Shown piece after piece: positions 1 through 62,952 of a DNA stretch of 64,000 nucleotides. A program made the translations under genes and the position numbers. Under the pieces are notes generated by a model. It ran no database searches. It was not told the DNA's origin and saw only the letters and a program-made list of their open reading frames with translations. The DNA is from Salminus brasiliensis. Its lineage: Eukaryota > Chordata > Actinopteri > Characiformes > Bryconidae. How positions within the stretch are numbered: the first letter of the stretch is position 1; every line of letters starts with the position of its first letter. Where the stretch lies: contig NC_132880.1 in assembly GCF_030463535.1 (NCBI RefSeq), positions 37,121,842 to 37,185,841 on the forward strand, written 5' to 3'.

Positions 1-582
1 TATGCTGTAAGTATAGCCCTGAAGGTTGTGCTTGAGGTTGGCTTCATCGTTGGTCTTTGGTTGCTCTATGGATTTGTAATTCCAGCTAAATATGAGTGCC
101 AGCGAGCTCCCTGCCCCCACACTGTGGACTGTTTTGTCTCTCGGCCAACTGAGAAGACCATTTTCACTATCTACACTCAAGTCATTGCTTTCATTTCTGT
201 TCTCCTGAACATTCTGGAGTTGTTCCACCTCCTTCAGTTGGCCATCACACACTGGTTGGAGAAGAGATACCGGTACCAGGAGCTAGGGTCACATAGAAAG
301 ATTGAACGGACTCCCACTGAACTGGAGCTCACAGAAGTCCAGGCTCCATCATATGAGGAGAAGGGCAATCTTTTTCTTCCTGTGGGAAATGACAGTTATG
401 GGCAGTCTGGCCGCAACTGGACTGAGAGTGAGCCCTACCTAACAGCAGATATGCTTCCAACCTACTCGAACTGTATTAGAAACAACAATTACAGACATCA
501 CTCCAAAAAACCCACACACTCCAAAAAACCCAGTAAAACTGTCCATAAAGGGAAGCACTCGACAGACAAACATTATGTATGA
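1..582 (+). CDS. gja4: Gap junction alpha-4 protein (connexin 37/39.4), C-terminal part
   Basis: The frame is open from the first base of the window, so the true start lies to the left; 193 residues are visible. They cover the third membrane segment, the second extracellular loop with its connexin cysteines (C-X4-C-X5-C in CQRAPCPHTVDC), the SRPTEKTIF motif that begins the fourth segment, TM4, and a long cytoplasmic tail. The tail shares LPVG, the NW pair and a C-terminal -YV with mammalian GJA4, which is why I choose gja4 over gja1, gja3 or gja5. Connexins assemble as hexamers and dock into intercellular channels in the plasma membrane; gja4 is known in vascular endothelium, and the zebrafish orthologue cx39.4 acts in pigment-cell patterning. 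Roughly the first 160 residues are missing. The gene is convergent with smim12, pef1 and the beta connexin, which all lie on the other strand. Confidence 0.9.
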   Translation, partial: YAVSIALKVVLEVGFIVGLWLLYGFVIPAKYECQRAPCPHTVDCFVSRPTEKTIFTIYTQVIAFISVLLNILELFHLLQLAITHWLEKRYRYQELGSHRKIERTPTELELTEVQAPSYEEKGNLFLPVGNDSYGQSGRNWTESEPYLTADMLPTYSNCIRNNNYRHHSKKPTHSKKPSKTVHKGKHSTDKHYV

Positions 583-4121: not shown

Positions 4122-4892
4122 CAGTGCCCTGCAAAAGTATTCGGCCCTCTTGAACTTTTCACACCTTTTGCCACATTTCTGGCTTCAAACATAAAGAAAT
4201 GAAATTGTAATTTTTTGTGAAGAATCAACAACAAGTGGGACACAATCGTGAAGTGGAATGAAATTTATTGGATACTTTAAACGTTTTTTTTTTTTTTAAA
4301 CCTGAAAAGTGGGGCGTGCAATATTATTCAGCCCCCTTGCGTTAATACTTTGTAGCGCCACCTTTTGCTGCGATAACAGCTGCAAGTCGCTTGGGATATG
4401 TCTCTATCAGTTTTGCACATCGAGAGACTGAAATTTTTGCCCATTCTTCTTTGCAAAACAGCTCAAACTCAGTGAAGTTGGATGGAGAGCGTTTGTGAAC
4501 AGCAGTTTTCAGCTCTTTCCACAGATTCTCGATTGGATTCAGGTCTGGACTTTGACTTGGCCATTCTAACACCTGGATACGTTTATTTGTGAACCATTCC
4601 ATTGTAGATTTTGCTTTATGTTTTGGATCATTGTCTTGTTGGAAGATAAATCTTCGTCCCAGTCGCAGGTCTTTTGCAGACTCCAACAGGTTTTCTTCCA
4701 GAATGGTCCTGTATTTGGCTCCATCCATCTTCCCATCAATTTTAACCATCTTCCCTGTCCCTACTGAAGAAAAGCAGGCCCAAACCATGATGGTATGTTC
4801 AGGGTGATGAGCTGTGTTGCTTTTACGCCAAACATAATGTTTTCCATTGTGGCCAAAAAGTTCGTTTTTGGTTTCATCTGACCAGAGCACCT
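4122..4892 (-). mobile_element. 5'-truncated Tc1-like transposon
   Basis: One end is preserved: TA at 4120-4121 followed by CAGTGCCCTGCAAAAGT, a typical fish Tc1 terminus. A second related motif about 200 bp inside (near 4320-4340) indicates an IR/DR layout. The element runs into the transposase 3' half and stops abruptly near 4892, so the other terminus and the DNA-binding half are gone. Confidence 0.8.
4342..4890 (-). pseudogene. Tc1-like transposase, C-terminal 182 residues
   Basis: The open frame begins inside the catalytic domain at WSDETKNELFG and ends at GGATKY, the normal end of these proteins. All three catalytic acidic residues are present: D of WSDET, first D of FQQDNDPKH, and E of [11 protein letters not shown], with the DD34E spacing of Tc1. 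The first ~150 residues, which carry the paired-like DNA-binding domain, are absent and the flanking sequence does not encode them. The frame is otherwise uninterrupted, so the truncation is probably not ancient. Confidence 0.85.
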
Positions 4893-6800
4893 TACCTTAA
4901 AGATTTCATTTTTACAATTTCATAACTTTTGGGTTGTACGTTGGAAGGTTTAGTTGAAAATGAAAATCTGGTTGATGTTGAATTTTGCCTGAAAATCAAA
5001 GTATCTGTAAAAAAACAAAAAACGAAACAAAAACAACATCGATTGATTCATTGTTGATACAACATTAGACAGGATCTCTTTCTCTCAGTGCAGTGTAGCT
5101 AGCGTTATGTACCATAGAATGGCTGCAGGGAGTGTGGAGTTCAAGTTCCTTGTTACTCTCTACTGGTATAAATTGAAGGAAATCAAGCTTTCAGCGCCAC
5201 TTTTCACACTTGGTATCAGTTTACTACATCTTCACAGACTGACTGTTTACCAGCTGAAAGATGCTGAAGGCTTGGCTAGCGACGTTAGCAAGCTGAGGTA
5301 ACAGACCACTAGCAAATGTCTGTTTATCTAAATGACTGGCTACCTTTCTCTGTGTACATTTCAGCTACATGCCATGCAACTCACTGTAGATTACTATGTT
5401 TATAAACAGCTATAGAGAACATGAAGCTGTCCTTCTGTCGGCGTAACAATAAAACAAGTATCTAAACTGCAAATGACAGGAAATGTACCATTAACAAAGA
5501 CATATTATTGTTCATACTGCTGAAAACAAGTCCTGCTCAAAATGAAGTATTGACAAAATGAAGTATTGTGATTTACAGGATCAAATATTTTTACTGTGGA
5601 ATTCATCCTTCACTGGAATGATGCAGTACAGATCTACAGATCAATAGATGTTGGTTTGTGGTCCCCAAAACTCATGTTTGGGAGACATTAGGTTTTGGTA
5701 ACATCGCAACTTAAAACCAACGAAATATGTCAGCTGTTGTCACTATACAGCATTACACTGTCGCTGTTAGACATTGTCCTGATATTGAATTTTGGTCTCC
5801 CGATGACACGACCTACGTTAAACCAGATAACAACGTCTGTGAACATTGGTGGCAGCTGGGCTAGAGGCCGTCCAGTTCAGAAATTATGAAACTTTAAAGG
5901 AAAGCATGGGTGGTTCTTTGTATGTGCAGGTTCATACAATCACAGCAAAGAGAGAGAGAGAGAGTGAGCTGCCTCTGTGTCATGTCATTTCCTGTATCCT
6001 GACTTTCTTCTACTGAATGCTGATGCATTTCCTTTCTGCCAGCGAATGCACAATCATATAGACATCCAGTTAGGAGATTAAAACCAATGAACTATGTTCA
6101 TTGAATGTTTTATTAAAGAAATTGCTGGGTTGTGTTCTGGACTGTATCTTGGATCTGATCGGATGATGATCCTAATCCCTTTGGGTGATTTTGGTGGAAA
6201 CACCAACCCTCTGGTCACCAGAGCTCTAGAGCATTCTTAAAAACAAAGATTTCTACATGACTCATATGTCGGGCCGCTGATATGACTCATACGTGGAGCT
6301 CTTCATGACTCTGGGCACCTTTATTTTTAAGAATGAGACGGCCATTTGTGGCAGAGGTACGATGTGTACAGGGCAGAAAGCTCACACTTCCTGCCAGCTG
6401 ATGAGATGAAAACATCTCTTTCCCCAGCTATAGCCATAACAAGGAAGATAACACACAATGCCACCATGGCATGCGCACATTTTAGGCCGAGACCTAAAAA
6501 TAATGTGAAAGTTTGTCCTTTTAAATGAACGTGCACATGCTGTGATGTTTAATCAGTGAGCCGATTTTATCTGATCAGATGTTCCCCAATCATGCCAGCA
6601 TCCAGTCAATATTTACTGAATATGGGAAAGCAAAATCCAAGCTTTTCTATGTTTCCGTAGAGAAAACAGGGCAGGTTTTAACACCAAATGGAGATTTAGA
6701 GCTTTCCACACAGTTACTTTAAACCCCCTGAGAAATGACGACACATCCCGATGCTACTGATCAATATCCTAGATCTCAAAACCTCTATTTTTTCTCACTT
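4893..6800. other. Intergenic DNA, no gene recognised
   Basis: Includes stretches resembling a fish dispersed repeat built on 'gttgatacaac' motifs (about 4920-5075 and 5640-5850). Short open frames here have no recognisable homology. Confidence 0.4.
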
Positions 6801-13204: not shown

Positions 13205-13480
13205 CTAGCTTTTTTCTGGTCTGTTCCTTTCCAATGCTGCCCTGGGGGTGAACTCCAGTTTGTCCTTAAGACTAAGCACTTGTGTGCTGTCCCGGCCAAC
13301 CAGTTCCTCCAATTTTCTGTCCTCTCGCAGCTCTGCGATGCCTCTCTCTTCTCCGGGGGCTTTGGGGGTTCCTCGGATGAACCACTCCAGGTGATATCCC
13401 ACTGCACCCACCACGAAGGCCACAGGGAAGGTCACGTAGGGCGCATAGGTGCGCATGGCAGTCCACAACACCGGCCACAT
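13205..13480 (-). CDS. smim12: Small integral membrane protein 12
   Basis: A 91-residue protein with the family's near-invariant N-terminus ([20 protein letters not shown], residues 11-30) forming one membrane helix, then LEWFIRG and a charged tail with [17 protein letters not shown] and the closing NRPEK. Human SMIM12 has 92 residues, so it is complete. The whole coding sequence is in one exon. On the - strand a strong acceptor (pyrimidine tract then AG at 13518-13517) precedes it, so about 36 bases of 5' UTR share the exon and an upstream non-coding exon is expected. Its function is unknown; it is a single-pass membrane protein. SMIM12 neighbours GJA4 in human as well, which supports the gja4 call. 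Confidence 0.93.
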
Positions 13481-13952
13481 GGCTGCACACTGAACCCCAA
13501 AAAACTCAAATATGCCCTAAAAAAAGAAAAAGGTGAGAATTCATTATTATGGCCAACAGTTAGCTAACTGTCCCCTGTTCCTTTAATATGACATACACAA
13601 GTCAGGTGGTCGCATTCACAAGTTAGCTAGATAGATAGGTAGTATTGTCTATATGCATTTAAGTAGCACGTTATTATAAATGTTACATGATTTATTATGA
13701 CTTATTATACATGTACACACCGTCCCTTCGTTCGCTTTAAAAATGACCCTGTCTGTAAGCAAACATGTGAAACGAGCCTCAGTAGACTGAGACGATAGCA
13801 CGTTGCTAACCTGCTCGCTCCGCTGTATCAGTAAGGACAGCAGTGTCAATAAACACACGCATTAAAAACACAACCCTATAACGCCATTATTAAGCCCGTG
13901 TGCTTTCCCATATATCTTTAAGCACTACTCTACTGGACTCTGCCTCTTTTAC

Positions 13953-16139: not shown

Positions 16140-19100
16140 CTATAAAAAAGAGAGATTGACAGATTATGGGATAATGGCCATAGTAGCTGAACAATAAATG
16201 CTGAATAAAGTAAAATAAAATCAGAAACATAGCCATGGGGTGCTACCACCCAACAAAGTTTATGATCCAGATAATGCAGGAGGGAATCCAAGATGATATT
16301 ATATTACAGCCGATCTCTTTTGATCTAAACTCTCCAGGAAAACAATCAGAGCACCCCTGATGTATTCGATAAGAGCTATTGCTCTCATTACCCTTGCCTT
16401 ATTAGGGCTTTAAACAGCAGCAAAAAGAGAGTGTAGATCTGGGTTGAAAGAGGGCCTATATTCCCAGACAACATAAACTCCCTGGACAAATTTCATCACA
16501 TGCATCATTTCTTTTATAATGCACGGTTCTGTGTCCCCTTGACTTAACGACTGCACCAGAATTAGTCAGAAGTAACAAATTCCTGTCCTTTTTAGTCCAG
16601 TCTTTCCCTAATTTTGTGCTGCATATCGATAAAGAACACTATTAACTATTCTGAAATGACAACTGTAGGATGCACATATCCAAATTTGTGTGGAACTGGT
16701 TCAACTGACGAGATGAAACATTTGGACACTTAGAAAACAAGTAAAGTGCTGATTTATGCTGTTTTTCACATATGAACTCCAGAGAATCAGGTCCAGACAT
16801 TATCCAGAGTTGCCCTTTCACACATGCAGCGTGCAGTCTGAGATTTTTCATGTTCCATGCGTTTTAGGCAAGGGGCGACACCTCTGCAGCACGTGCAATA
16901 GCACGGCATGATCCACTGTGAATTCTCCGGAAAATTACCTGCTCTTTTCAGACATAGGCTTACACAGGCATTACCTAGACTCTGTACTAGGGGGTAGAAG
17001 AATAAAGTCAAGTACATCTGTGTTCAAACAAAGCTTTTCTGGGTAATAGTTCTGGGCTACTGTGCATATCTGAAACACTGTCCTCAGCAGAAATGTACAC
17101 CCAGGTCATAGAAAAGTGGGCTTACATGGTCAATAACATCTCAAGTAACTGGTGTAAACCTTACTTGGCATGATTGACACTGTTACTAAACCAAGGGGAT
17201 GCACAAGAGAAGAAATTATGTATATTAAAAATGGTCTTAAATCTTAAGACATCTTAAATCTACCATGCAACCTTTTGATGGTGGGTGGGAATTATCAATG
17301 ATTAAATTTTGAGAAAAATTAGGAAAATCTTCACCTTGGTGCATCTCATTGCTGTTGATGGAACCTGAACGGTCTCTGTCAAACTGGTTGAATAGTGCTC
17401 GCCACTGCTGCAAGAACATCCAGAGAGCCGAGAAGCCAAATACATCCATGCGGCCAGACTTGGTCTTGTCAAACATATCTGTAGAAAAATGATTTAGAAT
17501 TAATGACTTTCCCACACCCAGAATTTTACATTCAAAATAGACATGAGTCGCTTATCTGCCTATAAATGCATCAATTCAGTAATGGAAATGCTCTGTCAGA
17601 GAGCGAGAATGAGAATTTGACTGTGGACAAATAATAGGCGAACTACTGACTGAGCATCATCAGGCAGGTCTCATCATTGAAGGCAGAGTTGTTGGAGTTG
17701 AGAAGGGCCTGCTTCAGTTCCTTAAGGTTGATGTAGCCACTGTGGTCTGAGTCAACGGTCTGAAACCACTGAAAGGCCTCCGGGTTAACTCCTGGTGGGA
17801 TGTTACCTGGAAAGCCGAAATCATTCTGGATGAAATTTCATACAGCTCTAAAAACTCTAACAGTACCACAGCAGATTCCTTATATATTTTCTTTATATTC
17901 TAAAACATTGCAGACACTCTGAGAGCAACACCTGGTTAGACTAATAAGAGTGTGTGGCGGTGCTAAACAAAATGAAACACTCAGTTGTCAGTGAAGTGAT
18001 GGTCTGTGCCCATGTCATATTCTGGCCCCAAGAGGGACTCAGACGTGTCAGTTTTGGACGAACCCAGATGGGCTGTGTCCCCCTGGGAAAGGATAATGAT
18101 TGTGTTTAAGAGCCATCCTGTGACTCAAGCCCCATAGGACACAATATTACACACTCCGCACTGTACAAAAAAAAAAAAACACTCTCTCGCACGCAGTCAC
18201 ACAGCATTATCATGCCCATCACTCTAATTCCGCTACAGGCACAACCTGAACCAGATCTTTATACGCTGCAGCTGCCAGGATTCTGGACTGCAGTCAGTCA
18301 TCAGTCATTCAGTGAGGGGCAGATGACACAGCTGCAGTAAAGGGGGATGAAGGACCTTGTCTGCAGCACCTTCATAAATTCCTGTTTTCCGCGTTTTGTG
18401 CGCATCCCTCGGCCACTGCAAACATGATGGAGAGGCTGCGGCAGCGAGCGTTATTTTGTGCCCATAACCTTGACGCGCACACAGACATCATCAGCCAGAT
18501 CAGACTGGATCTGCTGTCTGCCATGGCGGTTAACAAGTGGGGAAAAAATTGGAAGACAGATCAAGGACCAGAACGGTGTGATCATAACGGCAGAGTGAGA
18601 AAATGTGACTTTATGTTCAGAAAAATAAAACATGACATGCCAATACACAACCCTGAATACCCGATTTATGACTCGGGTGAATTTCTGTTACATGGGAACT
18701 AAGCTTCAACACAATTGCGATTTCTCTCAACAGCTAAAAAGCTTGCCTGGAATCTGCTGGCCATATGGTCCTCCATGAGGCTGTCCATAACCTCCGTAGG
18801 GACCACCTGGGGCCTGCCCCCCTCCATAAGGTGCTCCAGGCGCACCACCGGCTCCTGGCCCAAAATGTCCACCCGAACCAGGTGGGCCATATGCTCCATA
18901 GGGTGCTCCTGGGGCACCGCCATACTGTCCACCTGGGCCCCCACCATACCGGGACCCTGCAGGTGGACCTCCATAGGGCCCTCCAGCAGGACCACCTGGA
19001 GGTACACCACCTCCATATGGGGCTCCTGGATGTTGATGGGGAGGGTTACTCCCTGGTCCTGGATATCTCTGGCAATACGAAGAGAGAAAATCATGTAGTG

Positions 19101-21151: not shown

Positions 21152-21952
21152 CTACTTTATTTCAGTAGCGGCCTCCTCTTTCTTGAAGTTGTTGAGGTTC
21201 TGAGTGGATGAAGCAGTGGGGTCCACTCTAATATATCTAGAAGGAGGAATAACATTCATCTCATGCTGCCCAGCAGAATAAATGCGCTCTCGCTCCGTGT
21301 GCTGACGGTAGATCTTGTGTCCACGCTTGCACACCAAGTAGATCATCTCAAACAAACACATGAGAATGCACAAAGAAGAGGTCACCACCATAAAGATAGT
21401 GAAGATCTTCTTTTCAGTCGGACGGGAGATGTAGCAGTCCACCGTATTGGGACAAGGAGCTAGACTGCACTTTGACAGCCTGGGCATGTCATATCCGTAA
21501 ATGTAGTAGAGTATATAGAGGAAGGCACTGTCAAATGCTGCCTTAAATATCAGACTGATCACGTAGGTGTACCAAAGACCCCCACGCTTCCTGCCAGGGT
21601 GGGCATACAGGGACTTGCCCTCTTTATGTAAGGCAAGGTACTTTTCATTCTTCTGTTCTCTAAACTTCACATGGGCCACCACCAGGAGAGACGGGCAGGT
21701 TACCAAGATAAGCTGCAGGGCCCAAAGTCGGACATGGGAGATGGGGAAAATTTTATCGTAGCACACGGTTGTGCAGCCTGGTTGGGCCGTGTTGCACAGA
21801 AAGTCTTTTGCCTCGTCCCCCCACACTGGCTGCGCAGCCACCACAAACACCAGAAAACGGAAGACGAAGACCACAGAGAGCCAGACGCGGCCAAAAACGG
21901 TAGAGTATTGGCTCACTCCCCCGAGCAGGACCTCCAGGCTTGTCCAATTCAT
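21152..21952 (-). CDS. gjb3: Gap junction beta protein, GJB3/GJB4-like connexin
   Basis: A complete 266-residue connexin. I start at [10 protein letters not shown], the family's usual beginning, not at upstream Met codons, because a splice acceptor (CTTCTGTAG|GAGCTG, 21965-21964) lies 11 bases before this ATG; connexins typically keep their coding sequence in one exon after a non-coding exon. Seen: TM1 about 21-40, loop E1 with C53, C60 and C64 (C-X6-C-X3-C), TM2 about 76-96, a short intracellular loop (97-126) typical of the beta class, TM3 about 127-150, loop E2 with C162, C167 and C173, TM4 about 184-207, and a 59-residue tail. Hexamers dock between cells to pass ions and small metabolites. 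Similarity ([30 protein letters not shown]) and the gja4/smim12 neighbours favour GJB3/GJB4; fish names for this group vary, so the symbol is tentative. Confidence 0.88.
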
Positions 21953-22269
21953 TTTGGCAGCTCCTACAGAAGGCAAGATCACAGTTAGCCTAAATGTAAT
22001 TGCATTACACAATGTTATTATGATAATTATTTCATGATAAACTTGTCTGACAATTCTGTGAATGACACTAAAACTATGAATCATTTGTTTTAATCCTGGG
22101 GAGTTGAAAGTTAACCACAGTAATTTTTAGATATCCTATGACCTTTTTCTCATTATTTAAAAAAGAAAAAAATAAGTCATTTTCCTCTGCATTTATTTTT
22201 TATGTCTTTCTCTTCTGTCCACACACAGCATTTGTGTATATTTACTTAACAAAACCTACCTATCTATCT

Positions 22270-43584: not shown

Positions 43585-45132
43585 CACTGTGTGCAGAATT
43601 ATTAGGCAAATGAGTATTTTGATCACATCATCCTTTTTATACATGTTGTCCTACTTCAAGCTCTATAGGCTTGAAAGCCAACTACCAATCAAGTAAATCA
43701 GGTGATGTGCATCTCTGTAATGAGAAGGGGTGTGGTCTAATGACATCAACACCCTATATAAGGTGTGCTTAATTATTAGGCAACTTCCTTTCCTTTGGCA
43801 AAATGGGTCAGAAGAGAGATTTGACTCTGAAAAGTCAAAACTTTTGAGATGTCTTGCAGAGGGATGCTGCAGTCTTGAAATTGCCAAACTTTTGAAGCGT
43901 GATCACCTAACAATTAAGCGTTTCATGGCAAATAGCCAACAGGGTCGCAAGAAACGTGTTGAAAAAAAAAGGTGCAAAATAACTGCCCATGAATTGAGAA
44001 AAATCAAGCGTGAAGCTGCCAAGATGCCAGTTGCCACCAGTTTTGCCATATTTCAGAGCTGCAACATTACTGCAGTATCAAAAAGCACAAGGTGTACGAT
44101 ACTCAGGGACATGGCCAAGGTAAGGAAGGCTGAAAAACGACCACCTTTGAACAAGAAACATAAGATAAAACGTCAAGACTGGGCCAAGAAATATCTTAAG
44201 ATTAAGATTAAGGTTTTATGGACTGATGAAATGCGAGTGACTCTTGATGGGCCAGATGGATGGGCCCAAGGCTGGATCAGTAAAGGGCAGAGAGCTCCAC
44301 TCCGACTCAGACGCCAGCAAGGTGGAGGTGGGGTACTGGTATGGGCTGGTATCATCAAAGATGAACTTGTGGGACCTTTTTGGATTGAGGATGGAGTGAA
44401 GCTCAACTCCCAGACCTACTGCCAGTTTCTGGAAGACACCTTCTTCAAGCAGTGGTACAGAGAGAAGTCGGTATCAAGAAAAACATGATTTTCATGCAGG
44501 ACAATGCTCCATCACATGCATCCAAATACTCCACAGCGTGGCTGGCCAGTAAGGGTCTAAAAGAAGAAAAAATGATGACATGGCCCCCTTGTTCACCTGA
44601 TCTGAACCCCATAGAGAACATGTGGTCCCTCATAAAATGTGAGATCTACAGGGAGGGAAAACAGTACACCTCTCTGAACAGTGTCTGGGAGGCTGTGGTG
44701 TCTGCTGCACGCAATGTTGATCGTAAACAGATCAAGCAACTGACAGAATCTATGGATGGAAGGCTTTTGAGTGTCATCGTAAAGAAAGGTGGCTATATTG
44801 GTCACTGATTTGTTTTTGGTTTTGTTTTTGAATGTCAGAATTGTTTATTTCTAAATTTTGTGTTGTTATATTGGTTTACCTGGTGAAGATAAACAAGTGA
44901 GATGGGTATATATTTGTTTTTTTATTAAGTTGCCTAATAATTCTGCACAGTATTAGTTGCCTGCACAAACAGATATGCTAAGATAGCCAAATCTAAAAAA
45001 CCCACTCCAACTTCCAAAAATATTAAGCTTTGATATTTATGAGTCTTTTGGGCTGATTGAGAACATAGTTGTTGTTCAATAATAAAAAGAATCCTCTCAA
45101 ATACAACTTGCCTAATAATTCTGCACACACTG
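43585..45132 (+). mobile_element. Tc1/mariner element with DD37E transposase and IR/DR ends
   Basis: Bounded by TA at 43583-43584 and 45133-45134. The outer 25-base ends, CACTGTGTGCAGAATTATTA and its partner, differ at one base. A second, related copy of the motif lies inside each end (43763-43785 and 44928-44950), giving the inverted/direct repeat layout of elements with two transposase-binding sites per end. The transposase between them is frameshifted. The 37-residue spacing between the last two catalytic residues matches the DD37E group known from trout and other vertebrates as TRT; that assignment is from memory. Confidence 0.88.
43804..44808 (+). pseudogene. DD37E Tc1/mariner transposase, broken by two frameshifts
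   Basis: The likely start is MGQKRDLT at 43804. Frame is lost near 43828 and continues in the next frame as KSKLLRCLAEGC, which is the first of the helix-turn-helix segments (EIAKLLKRDHLTIKRF). It proceeds through the linker (GRKKRVEKKR) and the first catalytic D (VLWTDEMRV) to FFKQWYREKS, where a second shift near 44470 occurs. The last part holds the second D (FMQDNAPSHA) and E ([11 protein letters not shown]), with 37 residues between them, and ends GGYIGH. All three catalytic residues survive, so only the shifts inactivate this copy. Confidence 0.85.
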
Positions 45133-60599: not shown

Positions 60600-61120
60600 T
60601 TTAGCAATAGCTTCAGCACATGTGTATTAGATGCCTGAGAATTTTTTTTAAACTGTGCCCCAAACTGGATTCTGTCAGTCATGTTCTGTCAATCACTTTA
60701 TAAGACACTGTTCAACACCCTATCCCTGCACCCCAAATCTCCCGTACCACCTCATTACTCCACCTTGATTTTTTTGTCTATATGGCTAGAGAAACATGGA
60801 TGTTTCAGAGACAGGCTTTCCATAACAAATCAAGTAGAAAACATCTTAGAAAGTGGAGTAAAGTAAAGCTTTGGGTGAACCTCCTTCAGAGAATTATATG
60901 TAATACTGGTGGTCTAACACAGGTAGTGACTGATAAACTAATAGGAGGTTATTACAAAGAACTACTGGACATGAATACATTTACCTATCCTCACAGTACC
61001 AAAGCAATACAAGCTGAATTATTTGGGTTTATAGGTCTATTTTCTATAATTATAAAGAAGCTAGTTTTTGTAGTTCACAACACCACATATCAAATGTTAA
61101 CACCATCACGCCACTCAGAC
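60600..61120. repeat. Unclassified dispersed repeat, family B, copy 2
   Basis: Ordered similarity to 33930-34630 (GTGTATTAGATGCC, CTTTGGGTGAACCTCC, GTAGTGACTGATAAACT, CTATCCTCACAGTA, GTTTATAGGTCTAT, CAACACCACATATCA). Open frames inside are short and not shared. Confidence 0.6.
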
Positions 61121-61258
61121 ACATAGTTGGATGGCCAAATGCAATTGCTATACCAAGAAGTATCTGAAGTGAACATGTTACTTAACCACTAGAGGATGTG
61201 TTTTTTTGGATCTACTTTTACTTTTATTAACATTGTTACGTTTCATGATAATATATAT

Positions 61259-61264
<6 letters not shown>

Positions 61265-61300
<36 letters not shown>
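61265..61300. repeat. (TA)n, left of the Tc1 element
   Basis: Pure TA abutting the left end of the element; the matching tract on the other side is 62907-62952. Confidence 0.95.
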
Positions 61301-61303
<3 letters not shown>

Positions 61304-61498
61304 TGGGGAGAACAAGTATTTGATACACTGCTGATTTTTCAGGTTTTCCCACTTGCAAAGCATGTAGAAGACTGTAATTTTTATCATAGGTACTCTTCAA
61401 CTGTGAGTGATGGAATCTAAAACAAAAATCCAGAAAAATACATTGTATGATTTTTAAATAATTAATTTCCATTTTATTGTGGGAAATAAGTATTTGAT
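61301..61498 (+). repeat. Left terminal inverted repeat of the Tc1 element
   Basis: Exact reverse complement of 62709-62906 by base-by-base reading. Sequence diverges immediately inside (CATCTATC versus ACACCAG). Confidence 0.93.
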
Positions 61499-61668
61499 CA
61501 TCTATCAACCAGTAAGAATTTTGGCTCTCACAGACATGTTACTTCTTCTTTAAGAAGCCCTCCTGTTCTCCACTCATTACCTGTATTAACTGCACCTGTT
61601 TGAACTCGTTACCTGTATAAAAGACACCTGTCCACACACTCAATCAGTCAGACTCCAGCATCTCCACA

Positions 61669-62691
61669 ATGCCCAAGACCAGAGAGCTTTGTAAGGACAT
61701 CAGGGATAAAATTGTAGACCTGCACAAGGCTGGGATGGGCTACAGGACAATAGGCAAGCAGCTTGGTGAGAAGGCAACAACTGTTGGTGCAATTATTAGA
61801 AAATGGAAGAAATGCAAAATAACGGATAATCTCCCTCGGTCTGGGGCGCCATGCAAGATCTCACCTCGTGGAGCATCAATGATCTTGAGGAAGGTGAGGA
61901 ATGAGCCCAGAATTACACGGCAGGACCTGGTCAATGACCTGAATAGAGCTGGGACCACAGTCTCAAAGAAAACAATCAGTAACACTCTACGCCGTCAAGG
62001 ATTAAAATCCTGCAGTGCACGCAAGGTGCCCTTCCTCAAGCCAACGCATGTCAAAGCCCGTCTGAAGTTTGCAAATGACCATCTGAATGATCCAGAGGAG
62101 GAATGGGAGAAGGTCATGTGGTCTGATGAGACAAAAATAGGACTTTTTGGTTTAAACTCCACTCGTCATGTTTGGAGGAAGAAGAATGATGAGTACAACC
62201 CCAAGAACACCATCCCAACCGTGAAGCATGGCGGTGGAAACATCATTCTTTGGGGATGCTTTTCTGCAAAGGGGAGAGGACGACTGCACCATATTGTGGG
62301 AAGGATGGATGGGGCCATGTATCGTGAGATTTTGGCCAACAACCTCCTTCCCTCAGTAAGAGCACTGAAGATGGGTCGTGGCTGGGTCTTCCAGCATGAT
62401 ATCGACCCAAAACACACAGCCAGGGCAACTAAAGAGTGGCTCCGTAGGAAACATCTTAAGGTCCTGGAGTGGCCTAGCCAGTCTCCAGACCTGAATCCAA
62501 TAGAAAATCTTTGGAGGGAGCTTAAAGTCCGTGTGGCCCAGCGACAGCCACGAAACCTGAAGGCTCTGGAGGAGATCTGTATGGAGGAGTGGGCCAAAAT
62601 CCCTGCTGCAGTGTGTGCAAACCTTGTCAAGAACTACAGGAGACGTCTCATCTCTGTAATTGCAAACAAAGGTTTCTGTACCAAATATTAA
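61669..62691 (+). CDS. Tc1-like transposase, full length
   Basis: 340 residues, the normal length. Residues 1-110 form the bipartite paired-like DNA-binding domain (helix-turn-helix [20 protein letters not shown], then the second with [15 protein letters not shown]), joined by the linker RSGAPCK, which lacks the usual GRP motif. The catalytic domain has D153 (WSDET), the glycine-rich box [19 protein letters not shown] (187-205), D244 (FQHDIDPKH) and E279 ([11 protein letters not shown]), with exact DD34E spacing. It catalyses cut-and-paste excision and integration at TA. One oddity is DIDPKH where most relatives have DNDPKH. The start Met follows a 170-bp leader after the left repeat. The frame is intact, so activity is plausible but untested. 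Confidence 0.95.
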
Positions 62692-62708
62692 GTTTCTTTT
62701 TCTGGTGT

Positions 62709-62903
62709 ATCAAATACTTATTTCCCACAATAAAATGGAAATTAATTATTTAAAAATCATACAATGTATTTTTCTGGATTTTTGTTTTAGATTCCATCAC
62801 TCACAGTTGAAGAGTACCTATGATAAAAATTACAGTCTTCTACATGCTTTGCAAGTGGGAAAACCTGAAAAATCAGCAGTGTATCAAATACTTGTTCTCC
62901 CCA

Positions 62904-62906
<3 letters not shown>
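62709..62906 (-). repeat. Right terminal inverted repeat of the Tc1 element
   Basis: Partner of 61301-61498. It begins 18 bases after the transposase stop codon. Confidence 0.93.

Positions 62907-62952
<46 letters not shown>
62907..62952. repeat. (TA)n, right of the Tc1 element
   Basis: Continues the tract seen at 61265-61300, split by the insertion. Confidence 0.95.

Follow-up and report, generated by a model that had tools for sequence, protein, structure and literature searches.

Ends of about 200 bp that each contain two direct repeats are the defining feature of transposons of the IR/DR type, and paired direct repeats are present in each end of Sleeping Beauty. Sleeping Beauty was rebuilt from inactive elements. 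The zebrafish element ZB (Tc1-8B_DR) was found as native copies more than 99% identical to each other, is 1597 bp in length with a single open reading frame (ORF) of 341 amino acids and ends of 201 bp, and has been shown to be active (PMC7913693). ZB prefers long TA repeats, and the ZB-like clade to which it gives its name is described as having 100 or more intact copies in 26 species and as inserting into AT repeats; Passport, a native Tc1 element of the fish Pleuronectes platessa, shares a clade with ZB, and the catalytic domains of the Sleeping Beauty and ZB groups are 58-61% identical (PMC9777934).

A Tc1/DD34E element of 1606 bp was located on the plus strand inside a (TA)n array in a 64,000-nucleotide stretch of the genome of Salminus brasiliensis, referred to below as the window. 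Its features are as follows.

61301..62906, plus strand: entire Tc1/DD34E element of 1606 bp, belonging to a young family with many copies (from its anatomy and its copies in the genome)
61301..61498, plus strand: 198-bp terminal inverted repeat on the left, with no difference from its right counterpart (from comparison of the ends)
62709..62906, minus strand: right terminal inverted repeat, 198 bp (from comparison of the ends)
61299..61300, no strand: left TA of the target duplication, ambiguous within the TA array
62907..62908, no strand: right TA of the target duplication, ambiguous within the TA array
61265..61300, no strand: (TA)n array left of the insertion
62907..62952, no strand: (TA)n array right of the insertion
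61314..61324, plus strand: outer AAGTATTTGAT repeat of the left end, presumed transposase-binding site (IR/DR layout)
61488..61498, plus strand: inner AAGTATTTGAT repeat of the left end
62709..62719, minus strand: inner AAGTATTTGAT repeat of the right end
62883..62893, minus strand: outer AAGTATTTGAT repeat of the right end
61669..62691, plus strand: transposase ORF, 340 aa, DD34E (D153, D244, E279), with HTH_SB, HTH_Tnp_Tc3_2 and DDE_3

The anatomy agrees with a preliminary description of this DNA, which had reported ends without mismatch over 198 bp, two AAGTATTTGAT motifs in each end, an open transposase of 340 codons and a complete set of catalytic residues. The repeats at 61301-61498 and 62709-62906 are identical, and the perfect repeat reaches 234 bp only through the (TA)n array that continues on both sides, the repeat of the element itself being exactly 198 bp. 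Each end starts with CAGTGGGGAGAAC and carries AAGTATTTGAT twice (61314-61324, 61488-61498 and the mirror positions), 174 bp apart from start to start, which is the arrangement of the IR/DR type. We take these repeats to be bound by the transposase, as in Sleeping Beauty, and the outer end may resemble that of Passport. The ORF has no interruption, D153, D244 and E279 are all in place with 34 residues between D244 and E279, as in the DD34E transposases of the Tc1 group, and the Pfam domains HTH_SB, HTH_Tnp_Tc3_2 and DDE_3 all score above cut-off, giving a paired helix-turn-helix followed by DDE_3. A perfect 198-bp inverted repeat around a Tc1 transposase is not a product of chance. In its layout, with two direct repeats in ends of about 200 bp and a DD34E protein of 340 aa, the element matches the Sleeping Beauty, ZB and Passport kind of transposon. 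It is a real and very young member of a kind that is already known. The ends of the window copy are probably functional.

The best-matching solved chain was the catalytic domain of SB100X (5cr4; E = 2e-84, residues 114-340), a 340-aa DD34E transposase with the same domain layout, and the two proteins are 59% identical over that domain, a value that fits the range published between the Sleeping Beauty and ZB groups (PMC9777934). Likeness to ZB, judged from the description of that element, extends to size, single ORF, end length, near-identical native copies and preference for TA repeats. On its layout and its 59% catalytic-domain identity to SB100X the element is a candidate member of the ZB/ZB-like clade.

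The preliminary description had also called the other copies in the window broken. Tc1 fragments are indeed present, but they are not copies of this element and belong to other families, with four tblastn matches at 31-53% amino acid identity and a best DNA match of 66%. One, at 43724-44805 on the plus strand, is a Tc1-like transposase of a different family, about 31% identical, that is split over two overlapping frames and has a D-N-A-P-S-H motif; another, at 4345-4896 on the minus strand, is part of a third Tc1-like transposase, with D-N-D retained and 53% identity to the protein of the element. Host genes lie at 1-579 (plus strand) and at 21155-22126, 13208-13516 and 17240-17551 (minus strand), and comprise two connexins, a UPF0767 protein and an EF-hand exon; connexins are a sign of a vertebrate-type animal, and the Tc1 family suggests a fish.

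Searches outside the host found no close relative in the viral, phage, plasmid and prokaryote collections at the sensitivity used. Viral contigs gave 7 pattern matches with a protein query and 70 with an alignment query, and prokaryote genome contigs gave 30, none of which was confirmed. The transposase had no tblastn match in the phage collection and no close relative in the plasmid collection, where one match of 24.5% identity was to a Rhizobium IS630 transposase. In 18 viral contigs an exact 19-mer from the end was present; this was attributed to chance, as none of the contigs aligned with the element by blastn or with the transposase by tblastn (E 1e-3). The end sequence, used as a text string, was not found in the literature searched.

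The host assembly (1,066,335,885 bases in 103 contigs, window included) contains a large family of near-identical copies. A DNA search with the 1606-bp element produced 4745 first-look candidates, of which 40 were scored; in all of these, the window copy among them, the alignment covers 1605 or 1606 bases, and the 35 without gaps show 0-8 differences from the window copy in 1606 bases. In the five copies aligned over 1605 bases the last base appears to have changed and to have been trimmed by the local alignment. The youth proposed in the preliminary description is thus borne out, together with its prediction of many copies above 99% identity in the source assembly, and a single old copy is excluded. 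A 32-base pattern, made up of TA and the first 30 bases of the end, had 303 forward and 305 reverse exact matches in the assembly (control, 0); the roughly 300 exact ends in each orientation contrast with 20 full-length zebrafish copies of ZB, 19 of them called intact (PMC7913693), and the many fresh native copies contrast with the inactive elements from which Sleeping Beauty was rebuilt. Contig C1, which heads the coordinate-ordered list, has 36 forward and 37 reverse ends. For 34 of the forward ends there is a reverse partner, and 28 of these pairs have a length of 1590-1615 bp, which indicates that copies with exact ends are mostly full length and not short derivatives. A protein search gave 39353 candidates, and the 119 that were scored are all 98-100% identical over the full length, 10 of them with an internal stop.

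For closer comparison a sample of 73 copies was assembled from the 40 copies of the DNA search and 33 others from the 119 protein-search loci. Since the sample was ranked by similarity to the window copy, ages drawn from it are biased low and the variants of the window copy are over-represented. Private substitutions average 1.84 per 1606 bp across the 73 similarity-ranked copies. With the rate that was applied to ZB (4.13e-9 per site per year; PMC7913693), the mean private divergence corresponds to about 0.28 million years, a rough order of magnitude from a low-biased sample. A tree of 72 of the copies (one incomplete copy was omitted) is star-like, with 53 of 66 inner branches open and 1 reaching the support mark. 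A full 340-aa protein with D-N-D is encoded by 34 of the 73. The burst of the family is very recent and probably still continuing. Identical flanks are found among L036, L037, L038 and L058 on contig C14 and between L056 and L063 on contig C2, so that some copies multiplied by segmental duplication and not by transposition.

Perfect ends, pointed out in the preliminary description, are ordinary in the family. Counted as substitution mismatches between the two ends, leaving aside indels and missing stretches, 30 of the 73 copies have none, 33 have one, 7 have two and 3 have three. Sequence may also pass between the ends: element position 180 is changed in 8 copies and its mirror at 1427 in 5, so that 4 copies have both changes, 4 have that of the left end alone and 1 has that of the right end alone (L059, L079, L081, L086, L089, L099, L107, L109 and L113), a pattern that suggests such transfer and means that end identity is not a clean clock. 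This apparent end-to-end exchange is the one observation in favour of the view that the insertion is old and that conversion or an assembly error has made its ends identical, an explanation that we consider barely credible. The whole element, and not its ends alone, lies within 4 bases of the nearest scored copy, and with matching ends in 30 of 73 copies a local assembly error is not needed to explain the identity at the window copy.

Target sites have the form expected of the group. TA is found on both sides in 62 of 72 scored copies (one of the 73 was dropped for an N in its flank), and five of the remaining ten also look TA-flanked, after a changed last base trimmed by the local alignment; the TA duplication of the window copy itself is ambiguous inside (TA)n. 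When the TA units on the two sides are added up, 18 of the 72 copies, that of the window being one, sit in arrays of 5 units or more, in agreement with the preference for AT repeats reported for the ZB/ZB-like group (PMC9777934); in the rest of the window 67 of 4312 TA positions are in arrays of 4 or more. L061 has CA on the left and TG on the right in place of TA, and L027 and L107 have CA on the left side only. The left flank of the window copy, 60700-61250, is present at 100% over its full length at a single place in the assembly. A further 40 matches, listed after scoring 40 of 297 candidates, are partial at 68-89%, and no empty allele came to light among them.

The transposase of the window copy departs from that of the family. 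Compared with the majority of the 73 copies the element has five base differences, all of them missense changes at second codon positions and none outside the ORF.

62401..62403, plus strand: codon 245, read as ATC (Ile); AAC (Asn) in most copies of the sample
62141, plus strand: E158G, private among the 73 sampled copies
62276, plus strand: T203R, private among the 73 sampled copies
62291, plus strand: R208H, a CpG change shared with 1 further copy of the sample
62642, plus strand: K325R, shared with 1 further copy of the sample, which likewise has I245

Two of the changes are therefore strictly private, and four are additional to N245I. The last-named change adjoins catalytic D244, so that the Asn expected after the second catalytic Asp is replaced by Ile, and the proposal that the element is intact and functional is doubtful and finds no support in the form given, even with the triad kept. 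The Sleeping Beauty residue N245 forms a hydrogen bond with S270 and so positions a loop, containing Q271, by which target DNA is contacted; the mutant N245S, made in SB100X, which is a different transposase, is practically inactive (P = 0.0022; PMC4820933). S270 and Q271 are present in the window transposase, and N at position 245 is kept in SB100X and in both of the other Tc1 fragments in the window that have a match spanning that place. By analogy with the N245S mutant the window transposase is probably defective at target capture and probably non-working, N245I being expected to misplace the loop at S270/Q271 and so to cripple transposition. Isoleucine at 245 might nevertheless be tolerated in the background of this protein, and the window copy would then be a fully autonomous active element in which ends, frame and triad work and N245I and the other changes are harmless. 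That is an unlikely reading, though one with observations behind it, namely the open frame, the triad, the perfect ends and an N245I lineage whose 24 members with exact sequence context could mean self-movement by a working protein; it has to contend with the inactivity of N245S in Sleeping Beauty, with the retention of N245 in SB100X and both fragments, and with five missense changes away from the sample majority. An open frame, a catalytic triad and perfect ends do not in themselves establish a working transposon.

N245I is a lineage and not private decay of the window copy. Counted through an exact 28-base context, codon 245 was read at 285 places in the assembly and specifies Ile at 24 of them, on 15 contigs; in coordinate order the first 100 of the 285 have Asn at 89, Ile at 9 and Asp at 2. 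In the sample N245I is carried by 15 of 73 copies, a share above the genome-wide 24 of 285 as the sample was ranked by similarity. These 15 have different flanks and are otherwise majority-like, with a mean of 2.13 private substitutions compared with 1.82 in N245 copies of the sample. The presence of N245I at differing flanks indicates that copies with a probably dead enzyme have multiplied. The available text of PMC9777934 mentions no lineage of the ZB-like clade that is changed beside the second catalytic Asp.

The N245I change could in principle have been distributed mainly by ectopic gene conversion among copies already inserted, and not through new insertions that carried it. The shared variants bear traces of exchange between copies or of recurrent mutation: all four combinations occur in 14 of the 153 pairs that can be formed from shared sites chosen as non-CpG, among them N245I and the stop-loss change described below in one copy, and the mirrored 180/1427 change in one or both ends of different copies points in the same direction. 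Recurrent mutation can also yield four combinations, and the 24 places on 15 contigs, with 15 majority-like carriers in the sample, are explained more simply by insertion. Conversion as the main route is accordingly given only a slim chance, and it could have contributed part of the spread.

Other changed transposases are also found in more than one copy. Thr at 245, from a change at the same nucleotide as N245I, is found at 3 exact-context places, the same three that are in the sample, and the three copies also have a common change at element position 36. Codon 245 was considered as a mutation hot spot and this was rejected, as two different changes were likewise seen at codon 158 in the sample of 73. 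L096 and L075 have a stop at E158 in common at different sites, which is as expected for mobilisation in trans, although no other rare change links the two. L110 and L111 are identical to each other at different flanks, with D246N and three other changes relative to the sample majority, so that a copy with an altered D-N-D motif took part in one of the latest movements within the sample. A stop-loss lineage, TAA to GAA at element position 1389, lengthens the frame by 14 residues (356 versus 370) in 12 of 73 copies (L054, L059, L064, L079, L081, L084, L086, L089, L094, L101, L107 and L113).

Selection inside the ORF was considered from the private changes. The 44 N245 copies without the stop-loss have 15 silent, 19 missense, 3 stop and 1 stop-loss changes, and the 14 I245 copies without the stop-loss have 4 silent, 11 missense and 2 stop changes, with expected fractions of 0.26 silent, 0.69 missense and 0.04 stop. 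Missense changes are scarcer in the N245 set than these fractions predict, a possible hint of selection. No conclusion is drawn from it, because many copies entered the sample through their protein similarity, and choosing copies in that way removes missense changes by itself.

The reading we favour, and hold to be probable, is that the window copy derives from the recent burst and that the N245I lineage to which it belongs spread by means of transposase supplied in trans from D-N-D copies. Judging from Sleeping Beauty, the transposase would bind the two direct repeats of each end and the element would be cut out at its CAGT ends and inserted at TA, preferentially in (TA)n arrays. Both the window copy and the other members of the N245I lineage keep ends that look mobile, and would have been moved by the enzyme of D-N-D copies; on the simplest reading, transposase from intact copies (the 34 of 73 with D-N-D and 340 aa) moves all copies with good ends. 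Such movement in trans is expected of a eukaryotic DNA transposon with a freely diffusing pool of transposase, and theory holds that with many copies the shared pool also moves copies with a dead enzyme, which may poison the pool (PMC3687335). A more speculative and rather improbable extension is that the N245I and N245T lineages represent amplified transposases defective in target capture that still bind ends and pair with active subunits, and so would act as dominant-negative brakes spreading along with the running burst.

The feature of interest is the co-amplification of transposase-lesion lineages inside a fresh burst. The burst is young and has little background mutation, and the N245I, N245T, E158 stop, D246N and stop-loss lineages are each present at more than one site, so that the question of mobilisation and poisoning in trans becomes directly testable with natural protein variants, and the family is a useful natural experiment in trans-mobilisation.
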